Assembly (NCBI RefSeq): GCF_000003605.2
Contig: NW_003133844.1
Location: 100,787-139,984 of the forward strand
Direction of reading: 5' to 3'
DNA: 39,198 nucleotides
From: Saccoglossus kowalevskii
Taxonomy: Eukaryota; Hemichordata; Enteropneusta; Harrimaniidae
In this document: positions 4,385-30,900 of the stretch, in pieces
How the letters are laid out: each line of letters starts with the position of its first letter
Position numbering within the stretch: the first letter of the stretch is position 1
Translations under genes and position numbers: made by a program
Notes under the pieces: generated by a model
Told to the model about the DNA's origin: nothing
What the model saw: the letters and a program-made list of their open reading frames with translations, nothing else
The model's database searches: none

Positions 4385-5570
4385 GAGGGAAATGTATAAT
4401 AATAACTTGGGATGTATTTAGATCTCAAGTCTTGGTAAAACGGGCAGATAATGCAAAAAATGGTACTCGTTCTCTACACAATTGGTATTACATAAAATAC
4501 AAACTCTTTCTGCGCGTGTATTATGAAATTTTCTATCAGTTTCAATACGTAGACAATGGGCAGAAATTCTTAGGCGAAACTTTCCTGTAACAGTCTTTTT
4601 GGACTGTTGTAAAATACTTCTCTTGACCAAATATATATTTAAATTTTCTATAAAAACACAGCTTCGGAAATAACTCGAGTCCACTTTGCCAATTTTGAAT
4701 ATCAATGTCCAAGCATCGCTGTTTGAAAAGCTTAACAGAGTTCCCCACCCCTTGGTTGTACCATGCCTCACCCAGACCATAATAAAGAAGTAGCACTTTT
4801 AAATTCAGGGCCCAACACGTTTTACCCTTTTTGCTTCATGGTACTGAAACATGTAACATAAATAGACCAGTCTGTGTCGGGGTAATGATAAAATGCGAAG
4901 CCAGTACTTAATAATCCTAATAAGTCTAAACGTTTTAATAGTAAACCTACCTAACTCCCCCTTTATAGCCAAATTTGGTACATTATGATAGTCTTTCAAA
5001 ATAAATCGACAGAATTCGATGTTTTGTATAATTTCAACTTGATTGCCATTGTGAAAGCCCCAGACTTCGCTAGCGTACATTAAAATTGGTAGGATTTTAC
5101 CATCAATTATTTACATCAATACCATCAAATTGCGAAATACTTTTCTTAATCGCAAACAACGACCCTGACGCTAGACTGGGCATAATTCCAAATCCTAGAA
5201 CTCGACAATACTATACCCAAATAATTATTATAAGAAACAACTTCTAGTTTATGTCCTGCAAGCCACCATTGCTCAGTTGATTTCAATCTGCCCCCACGCC
5301 TAAATGCCATTACTTTAGATTTATCAATATATATTAACTTTTAGTCCCCATTTATTTGCATAGAGATCCAAATTATTCAGAAGACGTTGTAAACCCATAA
5401 TGGAAGAGCTAAAAACTGCCAAATCGTCTGCAAACAACAAATAAAATAATTTTATAGGCGTTATATAAACTCCGGCGTGGCTGTGTTGTAATTTAGGTAA
5501 TTTATATTCAAGTTTCATATTCTTATAAAAAACATTTGATATAATTTGGAGAAGGGACTTATTAATTAGG
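4385..5570 (-). mobile_element. Nested minus-strand LINE fragment: end of RT and C-terminal domain
   Basis: Reading right to left on the minus strand, 5518-5324 gives the RT active-site motif in 'FYLLFADDLAVFSSS', then 'GLQRLLNNLDLYANKWGLKV'. A later stretch gives 'KVMAFRRGGRL' and YLGIVLSS. Positions 5080-4805 give YASEVWGF and GELGRFTIKTFRLIRIIKYW. Positions 4780-4418 give 'RLRISAHCLRIETDRKFHNT' and CILCNTNCVENEYHFL, the zinc-finger-like tail common in invertebrate non-LTR elements. Stops and frameshifts separate the pieces. It is 5'-truncated and lies inside the plus-strand LINE, so it probably inserted later. Confidence 0.85.
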
Positions 5571-12665: not shown

Positions 12666-13165
12666 TCACAGCTCATCTTTTCCACCAGGTTTTGCTCTGA
12701 AAGAATATAAAATATTCAAACGATCTTTGAATTGCTCTTTCTTCTCTGCTTTCACTTTCTTATTTTGTAAGGTTTTCACACGAACGATCTCGTTTTCTAC
12801 AAAGTGATCGCCTATCTCTAACACCTTCTTCATAGTTTTGACGTAAATCTCGGCTGATGCCTTCTCGTTGCCTTTTAAATTCTCCACTTCTTTCTCTGCA
12901 TCAGATAAAACAGTTTTCCTCTCTGCTTCCTCAGCACCCATAAACTTCACAGCCATCTTGTCAAAATTTTCCAGGCATCCTTGAAGCCCGATCCACAGAC
13001 CAGAATTTTCTTTCACAAATGCCATTATATCATCTGATTTTATATCACCATAATATTTAATCGGGTCGTCTAGTTTTCCACCCAAAAATAATCTGTATTG
13101 TGGGAAATCTTCTTCCTTGATGCCAAATCTGTCACCAACTTCACTGTTTTCTTTGTCACCATACT
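12666..13165 (-). CDS. ERP29: ERP29 coding exon 3 (end of thioredoxin-like fold, D domain, KDEL, stop)
   Basis: Encodes residues 89-254 and the TGA stop. The acceptor reads ttccag before AGTATGG; two bases complete the codon split with exon 2, restoring the ISKYGDK junction (human ISDYGDK). Contains 'DFPQYRLFLGGKLDDPIKYY' matching the end of the thioredoxin fold, then the all-helical region. Confidence 0.97.
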
Positions 13166-16100
13166 CTGGAATTTGAATAGAAGTGAATATGAGCATATGT
13201 TGATACAGAAAGAAATAACAACATCAACCTTCAGTATTATGATTTAGATATCTTAAAATCATCACAAGTTGTGGAACGAACGTGACATTTGTTGGTTTGT
13301 GGGGTTGACTTCTGGGTTTAGATTAATGCTTACTAATATATTGTGAATTCTCTCCTCTATAACTATTTAATACATTTGAAGGATGTCTTCTGCATAAAAT
13401 TATTGTATAGATAAAATATCAACAATATGGTAAGAAAATACACTCATTAATACCCAAACAAATTACATATACTTTATGTATGTTGTAAACATTTGATGAT
13501 GAAGATTTTTACTTCACTGTTTTCCCATCGTCATTATAAAAATCAGCATTTTCAGAGTTGTGGTCACTTGTCGGTCAAATACAGTAAATTAACAGCATGT
13601 TTTTTTTCACTTTTTTTGTATTTACTAGCTTGCCTGTAAATTTATATTGGACTTTTATCTGCTCTCTAAAAATTAGTCACTATGCAAACATTTTTTTTGT
13701 GGGCCTCCTTTTTGTGAGCATAAATGTACAGTTATGACGAAAGTGTCTATAAAAAGCAACTTTTTGAAGAAAAGCTGGATACAAACATCTCATATGGAAC
13801 AGGAAAACGATCAAGCATAGTCAACAGCGACAAATTTCATTTTATTTACTCCGTAATTATGTGATTTGTGAGACAGAACTCTAATTTGAAAGAGATTGGA
13901 TTTTAACACACAGTGTGTGACAGCTCTGAGGTCACAGCTGCATACATAGAAATGTACTACCCTCAAAGCTATCCATGCTTCCTAGATATGCATCACAAAA
14001 TGCACAGATGTCTCCAATAAAGCTAGAACAAAAACAATTATGGTCATAGTCAAGGCCATAATCATTGTCAAATGTAATGAATGCCATTGTTACAGGAGTT
14101 TATTGTACCACATTATATCGCGGAAAGCACTATTTGAAGAGACTACTAAGCACATTATAAACTTCACGAATATGAGTGCCTGCAACAAATTTTTAAATCT
14201 AATGGGTGATACAAATCTGAATGTACAAATACATTTTCTCATTTCCATCTTTCATTGATTTACTGTTTATTATTTTTTTTCAATATTATTACCAACATAT
14301 ATCAATTGGTTTTTTTTGTAATTGTAGTTTGTTGTTTTTTTAAAACCATTGTTGTGCTTTAGACAATAATTCTTGTAAAATTTGTATGTGTTATATATAT
14401 ATGTGTTTTAGAAGTTAGTGTAACCATTTTAATTCCTTCTGAAGATTCCATTTTATACATTAGCTGCTTAAAATAAGGTCAAAAAAGGTCACACATCCTG
14501 GTACTTTCTGGGGGTACAAATTCACCTTCAATTCGAATTTAATTATTATTTTCTCACAAAAATGCAAGCAGTTATCTTTGAAATTCAAAAACAGTTAAAC
14601 ATCGTAAAAAATGATATATATTATTGGAAATTCTTGCTGTGATGGAACAAAATACCCCCTGAAAGTACCAGGATGTGTGACCTTTAGAGGTCACGCATAA
14701 GGCCAAATACTTTGTATATCACAGTGACATGCATAAAGCTGTGAATGTTGGGAAAGTTTTATCGATAAAAATTTTTATAAATTCAAATTCACAAATCCAG
14801 AAATTATATGACAAAAACATTGAGGTTCTAATTAATATTTGATGAGGTAGCAAGCCCTTTTAAATAAGTGGGTGTGTCACTTAATGGTTTGTGCATGCAT
14901 TATAGGCTTGGACAATGTGGAACTCATGAGAAAATTAAATTATTAAATATTAGAATTTCAATGAAGACTAATCACCAGTTGGGGTGATTTCGCGCTAACA
15001 CCTCCATTTCGCGAATTTTTTTATTTTATTTAAACTACAAAAACAAATTAATCGCCCCGACTGCGCTAGTCTACATACCACTGTGCATATAAACAAATTG
15101 CAGTTCTTTAAAAGAATTAGTATCAATTCATTTACGCAATAATCCTAGTTTGAAATGCATACATGTACTGGTTATGGAGAAAACCGTGAAATCTGTACTA
15201 GAAGTCGCATCCCTAATAGAAGTTGCACCTATTCTTTTTGAACAATTTAAAACCAAAAATTCATCATTTCTCAAATGTGTAAATGCTCTAATAGAAGCCG
15301 CATCCCCTCTGTTGCATTGTATCATTTCAATAGAAGTCGCGGCTTCTAATACAGATTTTACAGAAGTACTGGCCTAATCAATAAAATAGTTTTGTTTGGG
15401 TTTGAATTAGACAGCAGATGTTGAATGAAAACAGATTGGTTTATAGCCACAGTAATGAGTATGGTACCGGTAATACATGAAGTGCACAATTTCAGTATCA
15501 CATGGAATTTTTTGTCTAAGTATTTCAACCTGCTATCTCATTCATAGTTTAATAGACAAAATGTCTTTAATACAGTGATTATCATATGCACAGCAAGAAT
15601 CAACCCAAATAAATGTTGACTTGTTGGATAAATCATGTGTACCAGAAACTCACAAATATATAAAAATTATATAAGTCTATACGTCTGAAACAATTTTTCA
15701 TATTATTATATTAAAGCGGAGGAGTCGTCACCTGCGGATGCATCAGATGGCCATCGCATGTCATTGTTTACAAACAAGCGTTTACCCAAGAGCCTTTACG
15801 TTTTGGCGTGTGTTGTTATCGTTGCTTTCGACTCAATTGCAGCGCATGTGCAGATGACTCCCCTTCCGCTATAATATAATTAGCACCAGATTCAATTCTG
15901 CATACTTACTTGAAATGCCAACTTCAGCAACTAGCAGGTGAGGCTGTGATACCGCCATTGAAGCAACTTTTTTAAATTCATCTTGTTTTTCACCATATGG
16001 GTAACTTTCATCAAACTTAACTAAAGTCACTTTGTGTTGCTTCACAATCTAGAATACAACGGTAAATATAAATTGGTTTAGTGTTTGAACACTGGATTTT

Positions 16101-27900: not shown

Positions 27901-30900
27901 TTTTTATTTTATTTGCCATTTCTGTCTTGTTTTGTATCTTCTCTCAGAAGTGAAAAATAATAAATATTGCACTACTACAGTAATAGAGCAAATACTGTTC
28001 TCTATACATTTAGCTGCTGAGTCCCATTGTCCTAGTTATCTGAATGACTAGAATGACTACTATGAGTATGATGTGTTTTAATAGTTGATTTAGGATGACC
28101 AAAACAGCAAATTTCATTGCATACTTAGGCAAAAATGTAAAATGCACGACTAGCTAAATTTACTTATATTAACATCTTTACTTCTACAGTCTTGTTACTC
28201 CTAACTAAAACCAACTCTAATAATTCAACTACTCTTAAAATATGATTTAGATGTTTCTTCTAACAATTCAGGAATTTCCAAAAAATAATTATTGTTTTGT
28301 ATTTCATTTGATAGGATCACAGTAGTGCTTTGTATTCTTGACTTTTTGAACACCATAATTTTACCCCCAAACATTTGGTGCAACATTCTGTAAATTTTCA
28401 TTTTTAGCTCCGCTGTCGACTTTGTCGAGCGGAGCTTATCATATGAGTGATTGTCCTCCGTCGTCCGTGTCAATGTTTTACTTTTTCGACTTCTTCTTGA
28501 AAACTACAAGCCTGAATGCTTTGATACTTGGTGTATATGTACCTTGGGTAGACCTCTCTCAGATTTGTTCATTTCATGATCATATCTTCAGTTCTCTAAT
28601 TTTGGTGAATATTTTTGTAATTTTTGGTAAAAAGTGATATTTTCGACTTCTTGTTAAAAAACCGCAAGTCCAATTGCTTTGATATTACATATATAGGTAC
28701 TACATGTGTATCTCTCTCAGATTTGTTCATTTTGTAATGATATCTTCAAATTTCTAATTTTGGTGAATATTTTTGGTAAAAAGTGATATTTTCGACTTCT
28801 TGTTAAAAACCACAAGTCCAATTGCTTTGACATTACATATATAGGTACTACATGTGGACCACTATCAAATTTGTTCATTTCATGATGATATCTTTAATTT
28901 TCTAATTTTGGTGAATATTTTTGTCATTTTTGGTAAAAGGTGATATTTTCTTCTTGTTAAAAACCACAATCATTTATGGTTAAAAATTATATTTTTGAAT
29001 TCTTGTTCAAAACAGCAAGTCCCATTGCATTGATACTATGCATATTGTTCATTTTCTAATGATATCTTCTGTTCTTTAATTGAAATGTGCATTGCTAACA
29101 GCGGAGCTATCTCAGCCGAGAGGTAGCCTGACAAGTTGGCGTAGGTGGCGCCCTGGACTGCTGCGATCCCCACCAACGCCTGACAGAATAGTGTAGTTTT
29201 TTCTTATCTCCGACAACTTTTTGTCGGCACCAATCAGATTTCAGAAACTATTGATTTTGACATCCGTCATAATTTAACCATTCACGAAGCGTTGCGATTG
29301 TTGAGACAACAACTTATCACTTCTGATCGTCTTCCTGCCCATTGTTTACCAACTCGTTGAAAAGTATGTGTGAGGTTGCCGACAGCACGCGTCAAATTGC
29401 CGTGGACACAAGTACCAGTTAAATGTTCAACTTAATCAAACAGCCACTTCACTTTGTTCGTCGTAATCATCAACTCTATCAAACAGGCTATTGTCGAACT
29501 TGAGAGCAAATTGAATATCCAGTTGAAGTCTGAACAGAAACGCGGAATTGCGTCACTGTATCGGGGTGAAGATGCGTTGATTATTCTACCGACTGCACAA
29601 ACTTCCACTGTGCTTTTCTCTTTCCAAAGAAACGGCAAAAATGCTATTCAAAACAGAGACCGTGTCGGACGACAAACTAGAATTGCTGGAAAATATCGGT
29701 CTTCGGTTTTTTGGTTGACTTGACACATCGGTACCGCAAATTGCACACGATGTCGGGTCCAGAGTTAATTCAAAAGTCGTCTTCACAGGAGTAATTTGTT
29801 GGTTGGAAAATTCGCACAATGGTGTAGAGAACTCCATGTCTTCCTCCTAGAATATTCACTACTGAAGTAAATATTCATCGTAAGCTTGTTGACTTGTTAT
29901 CTTTATCGTGCGTAATCTTGAGTGGTGTTTGTTTATATTTAGCACGTTGTAATCTATGACTGACAGAGTTACCATGACTACTTCATTGAATATTCATAAC
30001 TACGCAACAGAATCTAGATCTGGGTGTGGATTTTCTGTTTTGAAGTTGCCGACGAAAACTACACTATTCTGTCAGGCGTTGGTGGGGATCGCAGCAGTCC
30101 AGGGCGCCACCTACGCCAACTTGTCAGGCTAAGCCGAGAGGCTGCTTGTTTTTTTTTAAATTCAACATTTCCCACAGGTCTTGAGAAAAGATTTTTGTAA
30201 AAAATAGCAAATTTTTGGTTGTGGGATTTAAATTTGTGAATTGTGATAAAAGTTGACATTGGCAAAAGCTGGCAACATATAGCATTAACTATTTGCATGC
30301 CAGATATTCAGAAATTCAGTGCAAATATTTTCAAATTTTGTAAAATTTTCAGCGAATTTCATCATCATTTTAGGCCATACTGACAGTGTCAGATATTGGT
30401 TTTAGTTTTTGATCAAAAGATTTGTCAAGTTATATCAACATTTCATGTGGGAAGAAGCAGACTATAAAAAATTATTTTGTAGATGGTGCCAAAAGTTGAC
30501 AATGGTGCTCAAAATGTGATAATCTTTCTATGTTTTCAGATCAGTGAGTATTGAGAAGTGTCGTCATTCTACGATTGTACTCGGATCTGTGGAATCCACG
30601 GTACACGTCAATGCATGTGAACATCTGACGTTGATTACAACCTGTAGAAGACTTTCTGTAAAGTAAGTCACATATGAATTTATCGATTATGCTCTTCTAA
30701 AAGTTTCATTAAAATGTTTTTATTAAGAAGGGTGGATAAAAATATGGTGAATTTTCTAAGATTTACTGAAATGTTCATTCTTTCCCTTTAATGTCATCTA
30801 GCTATGTTTCTGTAAAAGTGTTCATCAATGGCCATATATGAATTCATTTAACTTGACTGTGTTGATGTTTTTTTGTTTTTGTTTTTCAGTGCATCTACAT

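Follow-up and report, generated by a model that had tools for sequence, protein, structure and literature searches.

Stub copies of a TIR transposon family in Saccoglossus kowalevskii reach at most to a second, inner terminal motif and are possible excision scars

Results

Short copies of a TIR transposon family in the genome of Saccoglossus kowalevskii keep at most about 54 nt of the TIR, and this limit falls beside a second occurrence of the terminal motif GCCTGACA further inside the TIR. Among the 78 distinct ends in the loci examined, 6 were full-like, with the inner part of the TIR kept, and 72 were stubs, whose alignments to the TIR end at positions 20–56 and in no case go past 56. These 72 stub ends come from 61 locus identifiers and some may be array units; the low stub lengths are limited by the 25-bp search pattern. 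The identity of the stubs to the TIR is 0.42–0.60 at positions 44–54, except for 0.35 at position 52, and is about that of chance from 55 onward. The sequence CTGACAG, allowing one mismatch, was observed at positions 50–65 inside 18 of 20 family ends (4.75% in shuffles), a hand-chosen set whose cases are not independent, since six are near-identical ends of the subfamily to which the copy in our window (the whole stretch of 39,198 nt that was analysed) belongs. We tentatively propose, at slightly short of an even chance, that the stubs are scars left by breakage near the inner GCCTGACA during excision or repair, a mechanism that we infer from the structure of the copies.

Structure of the element in the window

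Read directly from the sequence, the element measures 1,008 bp (29124–30131), with perfect 77-bp TIRs spaced 854 nt apart and a 10-bp duplication, AGCCGAGAGG, on both sides (Table 1). The preliminary description of this DNA had reported these same TIRs and this duplication, and its interval of 29114–30141 covers both duplications but is wider than the element proper. The duplication may be either a 10-bp target-site duplication (TSD) or a 9-bp TSD with one A added at the right end. The best explanation for the element is a recent non-autonomous copy of a cut-and-paste TIR transposon family. The recent insertion that had been suggested is upheld by the identical TIRs and by the partial copies on C349 (97%) and C2863 (99%). 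Ongoing mobility and an active partner elsewhere in the genome had also been suggested; no such partner was found, and ongoing mobility is not shown, because the zf-AD and RecQ relics near such ends, among the best candidates scored, are fragments and the full-like ends are few. A similar repeat adjoins the window copy (about 28359–28634) and the copy on C3852 (L046, 2500–2907).

Table 1. Features of the element, in positions of the window
Feature	Position	Strand	Basis or remark
Left target-site duplication AGCCGAGAGG	29114..29123	.	Read directly; second copy at 30132–30141
Left 77-bp TIR	29124..29200	+	100% complementary to 30055–30131
TIR outer module, positions 1–54	29124..29177	+	Portion kept, whole or partly, in stub copies
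Inner GCCTGACA motif, TIR positions 55–62	29178..29185	+	Sequence; outer copy at TIR positions 3–10
RecQ-like helicase exon relic	29469..29642 (C2560:130255-130428)	+	Genome search with RecQ-like query
zf-AD (ZAD) zinc-finger exon relic, inward from right TIR	29547..29837 (C2560:130333-130623)	-	Genome search with zf-AD query
Right 77-bp TIR	30055..30131	-	100% complementary to left TIR
Inner GCCTGACA motif of right TIR	30070..30077	-	Sequence
Right target-site duplication AGCCGAGAGG	30132..30141	.	Read directly

Copies in the genome and their target-site duplications

The genome searched comprises 572 Mb in 4,830 contigs. A search with the whole element gave at least 121 matches (the best 40 of 130 candidates were scored), and the best long partial copies were those on C349, on C3852 (88 and 81%) and on C2863. 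The 25-bp end, with up to three mismatches, was found at 79 places, and its reversed-pattern control at none, which indicates that the family is not a product of chance. For the analysis of the ends, 46 further loci were added to those from earlier searches, and C285, a locus running into N, was excluded.

With the window copy left out, 23 relatives have two ends. Twenty of them measure 32–131 bp, and the others are L002 (742 bp) and two arrays, L027 (812 bp) and L032 (165 bp). Their 9-bp flanks match at all nine positions in 14 cases, at eight in 3, at seven in 2, at six in 3 and at five in 1; agreement at eight or nine positions, seen in 17/23, had a mean of 0.72 and a maximum of 4 when the pairing was shuffled. 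The duplicated sequence at the window copy reads as 10 bp, as given in the preliminary description, but the relatives have duplications of 9 bp, exact in the 14 mentioned. Short copies with 9-bp duplications include L118 (32 bp, one mismatch), L096 (52 bp), L101 (62 bp), L121 (67 bp), L081 (68 bp), L089 and L025 (71 bp each), L084 (72 bp), L104 (78 bp) and L112 (131 bp).

Another 38 copies are one-armed, a set from which the full-like L003, L040 and L041 were left out. The left 9-mer recurs within 159 nt, with at most one mismatch, in six of the 38 (L019, L024, L083, L094, L095 and L105; shuffled mean 0.8, maximum 3). The duplications of L019 (58 bp) and L095 (36 bp) are exact, and the recurrence at L094 may be due to chance. 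In the remaining 32 the left 9-mer is not repeated within 159 nt; one of these, L018, is flanked by a duplication whose start is shifted and which was left uncounted.

L027 (C2391:138757-141810) contains, at 768–1550, 16 head-to-tail 49-bp TIR units; they are enclosed by two ends that have a 9-bp TSD, and this array is a minisatellite that arose inside a family member. At L032 (C3612:238238-241290, about 1388–1553) the 165-bp element is built on a 42-bp tandem TIR unit and has a 9-bp duplication, and at L083 (C1734:580467-580967) a 40-bp one-armed stub plus its 9-bp duplication is present in about three repeats with a period of 49.

Stub junctions and subfamilies

The limit of the stubs was also observed in long copies cut at one end, namely L002 (52 nt), L016 (54 nt) and L013 (50 nt), of which the other end runs into N in L016 and is damaged in L013. 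Of the long copies, that on C349 has both ends visible and retains only 52 nt of one of them. In the older subfamily the inner motif lies further in, at 64–65 or 59, and the two family ends that lack it, L117 and L123, belong to this subfamily. Read by eye, both consist of about 60–63 nt of the older end type, to which the opposite end type is joined by its inner part in reverse, and both arms halt close to where the inner motif would begin; no TSD was found around L117 or L123, and their far end is damaged or lost.

The stub junctions, also read by eye, vary between loci, except in L025 and L089, which share an identical 71-bp build. Microhomology at the junction amounts to 6 bp in L096 and 5 bp in L025/L089, and pieces of the TIR were recognised as junction filler in 5/10 cases (p ≤ 0.05), inverted in four and direct in one. 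Within 8 kb, L038, L040 and L041 showed no second end, and at L039 a pair of older-type ends lies about 4.7 kb away, with no duplication that matches.

An arms-only junction of the older type was found at 36 places (control 0); its length varies among them and is 31 in 14, and one such junction recurs at 22 places with at most three mismatches (control 0). This older arms-only element looks like a conventional MITE, so that arms-only elements of the family can amplify. In the window subfamily only L025 and L089 were seen to share such a junction; a possible reason is that a palindrome with identical arms would be unstable.

Exon relics inside the element

That no transposase is encoded, as had been stated, holds for intact genes, but the element contains two exon relics, a RecQ-like helicase on the + strand and a zf-AD on the − strand, which face inward from opposite ends. 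Frame 0 of the + strand of the window has a stretch ending in ...RGEDALIILPT, which the relative L003 carries on as ...LPTGFGKSLIYSLVPKAFN; judged from these translations, the combined stretch resembles the beginning of a RecQ-like helicase, and in the window the relic is deleted beyond the first part of the nucleotide-binding motif. A 72-aa query joined from the window and L003 matched DEAD with E = 3e-5 and 24.2 bits, under the cut-off of 26, and the window frame by itself gave no DEAD match. Against solved structures, no chain matched the RecQ query at E 0.01; the best matches, at E 0.015 and above, were RecQ and Bloom helicases, headed by 1oyw (E 0.015), which is annotated as an ATP-dependent DNA helicase. 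Two very similar RecQ-like gene pieces, L068 and L069, lie on the different contigs C4624 and C4340.

Inward from the right TIR, the − strand reads MEFSTPLCEFSN...CAICGTD.... A zf-AD query joined from the window and L008, a relative at C2261, reached 31.2 bits to PF07776, over the cut-off of 28; the C2261 frame by itself scored 26.7 bits, below that cut-off, and the zf-AD-like relic of L078 by itself gave no Pfam match. In searches of the own genome, which score the best candidates only, nine matches were listed for the zf-AD query and five for a divergent query; when PF07776 itself served as the family query, neither it nor its controls gave a match, a result that is uninformative. On C1645, C226 and C1731 a zf-AD exon was found near ends related to those of the window element. 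As divergent relatives hold this exon behind related ends, it is the family's own, and a capture of a host gene in the style of Pack-MULEs is disfavoured for the same reason. C1645 has both the zf-AD and the RecQ exon, on opposite strands; it was considered as an autonomous copy (L078) and rejected as an old relic with one end and remnants of both exons.

Superfamily assignment and the search for a transposase

P superfamily elements have 8-bp TSDs and a THAP transposase, and Kolobok elements duplicate TTAA; the relatives described here have 9-bp duplications of varied sequence. For MULEs, a review gives TSDs of 8–11 bp (PMC6446971), a range that includes the 10 bp of the window copy and the 9 bp of its relatives, and the perfect 77-bp TIRs agree with the long TIRs of this group. 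The MULE label of the preliminary description therefore fits the duplications and the TIRs, but no transposase with these ends was found, and the genome searches gave no full-length member. A standard non-autonomous MULE accompanied by many MITEs, with the autonomous copy absent from the assembly or missed, would be compatible with any origin of the stubs. MULE domains (PF10551) do occur at 12 listed places in the genome; however, a family end (12-mer, at most two mismatches) was not found within about 1.5 kb of any of these 12, the exons of the family are RecQ-like and zf-AD, and the stub pattern is unlike the excision of Muta1 (see below). We consider this account rather unlikely, and the MULE membership of the family is unproven.

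DUF6589 gave 11 matches, of which those on C1306, C1561 and C14 lie about 3–5 kb from a RecQ-like match on the opposite strand; the C1306 match was confirmed with E = 2.3e-29. We assume that DUF6589 proteins occur in marine invertebrates. These RecQ and DUF6589 gene pairs perhaps represent a separate transposon type, and as a partner type for the family they are a candidate only. The nine listed matches of the zf-AD query share no contig with the DUF6589 matches, so that they do not link DUF6589 to the family. C1306 was rejected as an autonomous copy: it has RecQ and DUF6589, but in the pieces read the end is matched only weakly, by dispersed 10-mers, and no alignment to the family end was obtained (L067 only). 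DUF6589, alone or combined with transpos-, was not found in the literature search, and searches with the family end sequences listed three papers, unrelated by title.

Comparison with known transposons

In the literature searched, not exhaustively, we met no description of stubs that an inner motif limits to about 54 nt. The family shares with MULEs such as Muta1 of Aedes aegypti TSDs of 8–10 bp and long TIRs. The report on Muta1 states that its excision is mostly precise and leaves at most 13 bp of TIR when the donor TSD is absent (PMC5225508), whereas the stubs described here keep up to 54–56 nt of TIR, and no MULE transposase was found. Plant tandem-TIR MULEs resemble the family in having outer and inner copies of terminal sequence, and one study argues that they were selected for cutting at the external TIR and discusses external versus internal cleavage (PMC3310237). 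According to this study, the two TIRs, external and internal, have 100 bp or more in common, in contrast to the 8-bp motif that recurs here, and the PM-ZIBP elements showed no derivative with a single TIR, whereas here outer modules remain as stubs.

The cleavage stagger of the Drosophila P element, 17 nt, is called unusually long in a passage of PMC7776569, which also has the host Bloom (RecQ) helicase acting in repair; such a stagger could leave terminal sequence. The family differs from P in its 9-bp TSD, its stub limit of about 54 nt and the location of a RecQ-like relic within the element. A RecQ helicase sequence in a DNA transposon, here a relic, is the feature in common with KolobokH and Kolobok-1_CCri, which encode this helicase, in the latter on the complementary strand, as given in part of PMC9587614. 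The word helicase is absent from the main-text part of the MULE review (PMC6446971), whose table lists for Rehavkus a 9-bp TSD, a PHD finger and minisatellites. The TSD length and the minisatellites of Rehavkus and Foldback-like elements are similar to those of the family, with its 49- and 42-bp arrays in L027 and L032; a PHD-finger transposase is a feature of Rehavkus, and no transposase was seen here.

Origin of the stubs

In the mechanism that we propose, excision of the element or repair of the gap would involve a DNA break at or near the inner GCCTGACA. The position of the break could be due to an alternative cleavage site, or to a tail or a protein-protected end reaching the inner GCCTGACA. 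The break would leave a piece of one TIR, at most about 54 nt long, united by end joining with a usually shorter piece of the other. This reading is favoured by the sharp bound of the stubs together with the inner motif in most family ends, by the arms of L117 and L123, which stop close to the motif positions of the older subfamily, by the like bound at one end of the long copies L002, L016 and L013, and by the TSDs around stubs, the junctions that differ by locus, the microhomology and the TIR filler. It is weakened by the recurring older junction, since arms-only elements need not be scars, by the single build shared by L025 and L089, by the surroundings of L038, L039, L040 and L041, by the missing TSDs of L117 and L123, and by the largely precise excision of Muta1 (PMC5225508). 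Moreover, for most of the one-armed copies the loss of one flank must be assumed.

The main rival of the scar reading, which we regard as rather unlikely, is the collapse of a palindrome. According to this explanation, an arms-only MITE of about 102–108 bp was built once from both outer TIR modules and spread. In the window subfamily, where the arms are identical, it would form a near-perfect palindrome and lose one arm by replication slippage, and in the older subfamily, where the arms differ, it would be stable. The recurrence of the older junction at its 22 and 36 places is consistent with such a MITE, as are L108, a nearly complete palindrome with arms of 51 (two mismatches) and 47 (six mismatches), and some deletions that join direct repeats, for example GGCGCC in L096 and CCACC in L025 and L089. 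However, L002, L016 and L013 are long copies, not arms-only palindromes, and show the same bound at one end; among the copies read no perfect palindrome was seen, with the exception of the shortened 52-bp L096, itself with a few mismatches; and most one-armed copies without a flank duplication count against this explanation too.

Should the stubs be scars, the 30–130-bp elements flanked by TSDs that repeat catalogues enter as inserted MITEs would be excision events, and genomes would hold a readable record of excision. From the limit of the stubs follows a testable prediction of where the transposase cuts, and transposon-borne RecQ-like genes bear on the repair of transposon gaps. A broader form of the scar reading, which we think doubtful, supposes a lineage that has RecQ-like and zf-AD genes, possibly a DUF6589 transposase, and two tandem recognition motifs in its ends. 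In this lineage, inner cleavage would leave scars of up to about 54 nt where the donor had been, and most of the dispersed MITE-like copies would be excision scars instead of insertions.

Abortive gap repair after Mutator-like excision with ordinary cleavage, in which a TIR hairpin (GGTGG at 20–24 with CCACC at 47–51) would stall synthesis near position 51, is improbable: the hairpin is predicted to close at 51, the fold of the whole 77-nt TIR is somewhat better than that of its shuffles (z −2.21, 5 of 200) and copies with internal deletions exist, but for the 51-nt end the fold does not surpass that of shuffles (z −0.01) and the bound shifts along with the inner motif in L117 and L123. A stagger of fixed length, about 52 nt, is disfavoured by the longer bound of these same two older-subfamily stubs, and a single amplified MITE as the sole source of the young stubs is disfavoured by interiors that differ by locus except in L025/L089.

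Other features of the window

On the − strand, the window also has a 176-aa open frame ending in GGKDEL (12666–13196), which we take to be an ERp29-like last exon, and a 120-aa open frame (4418–4780), which presumably resembles the end of a non-LTR reverse transcriptase.
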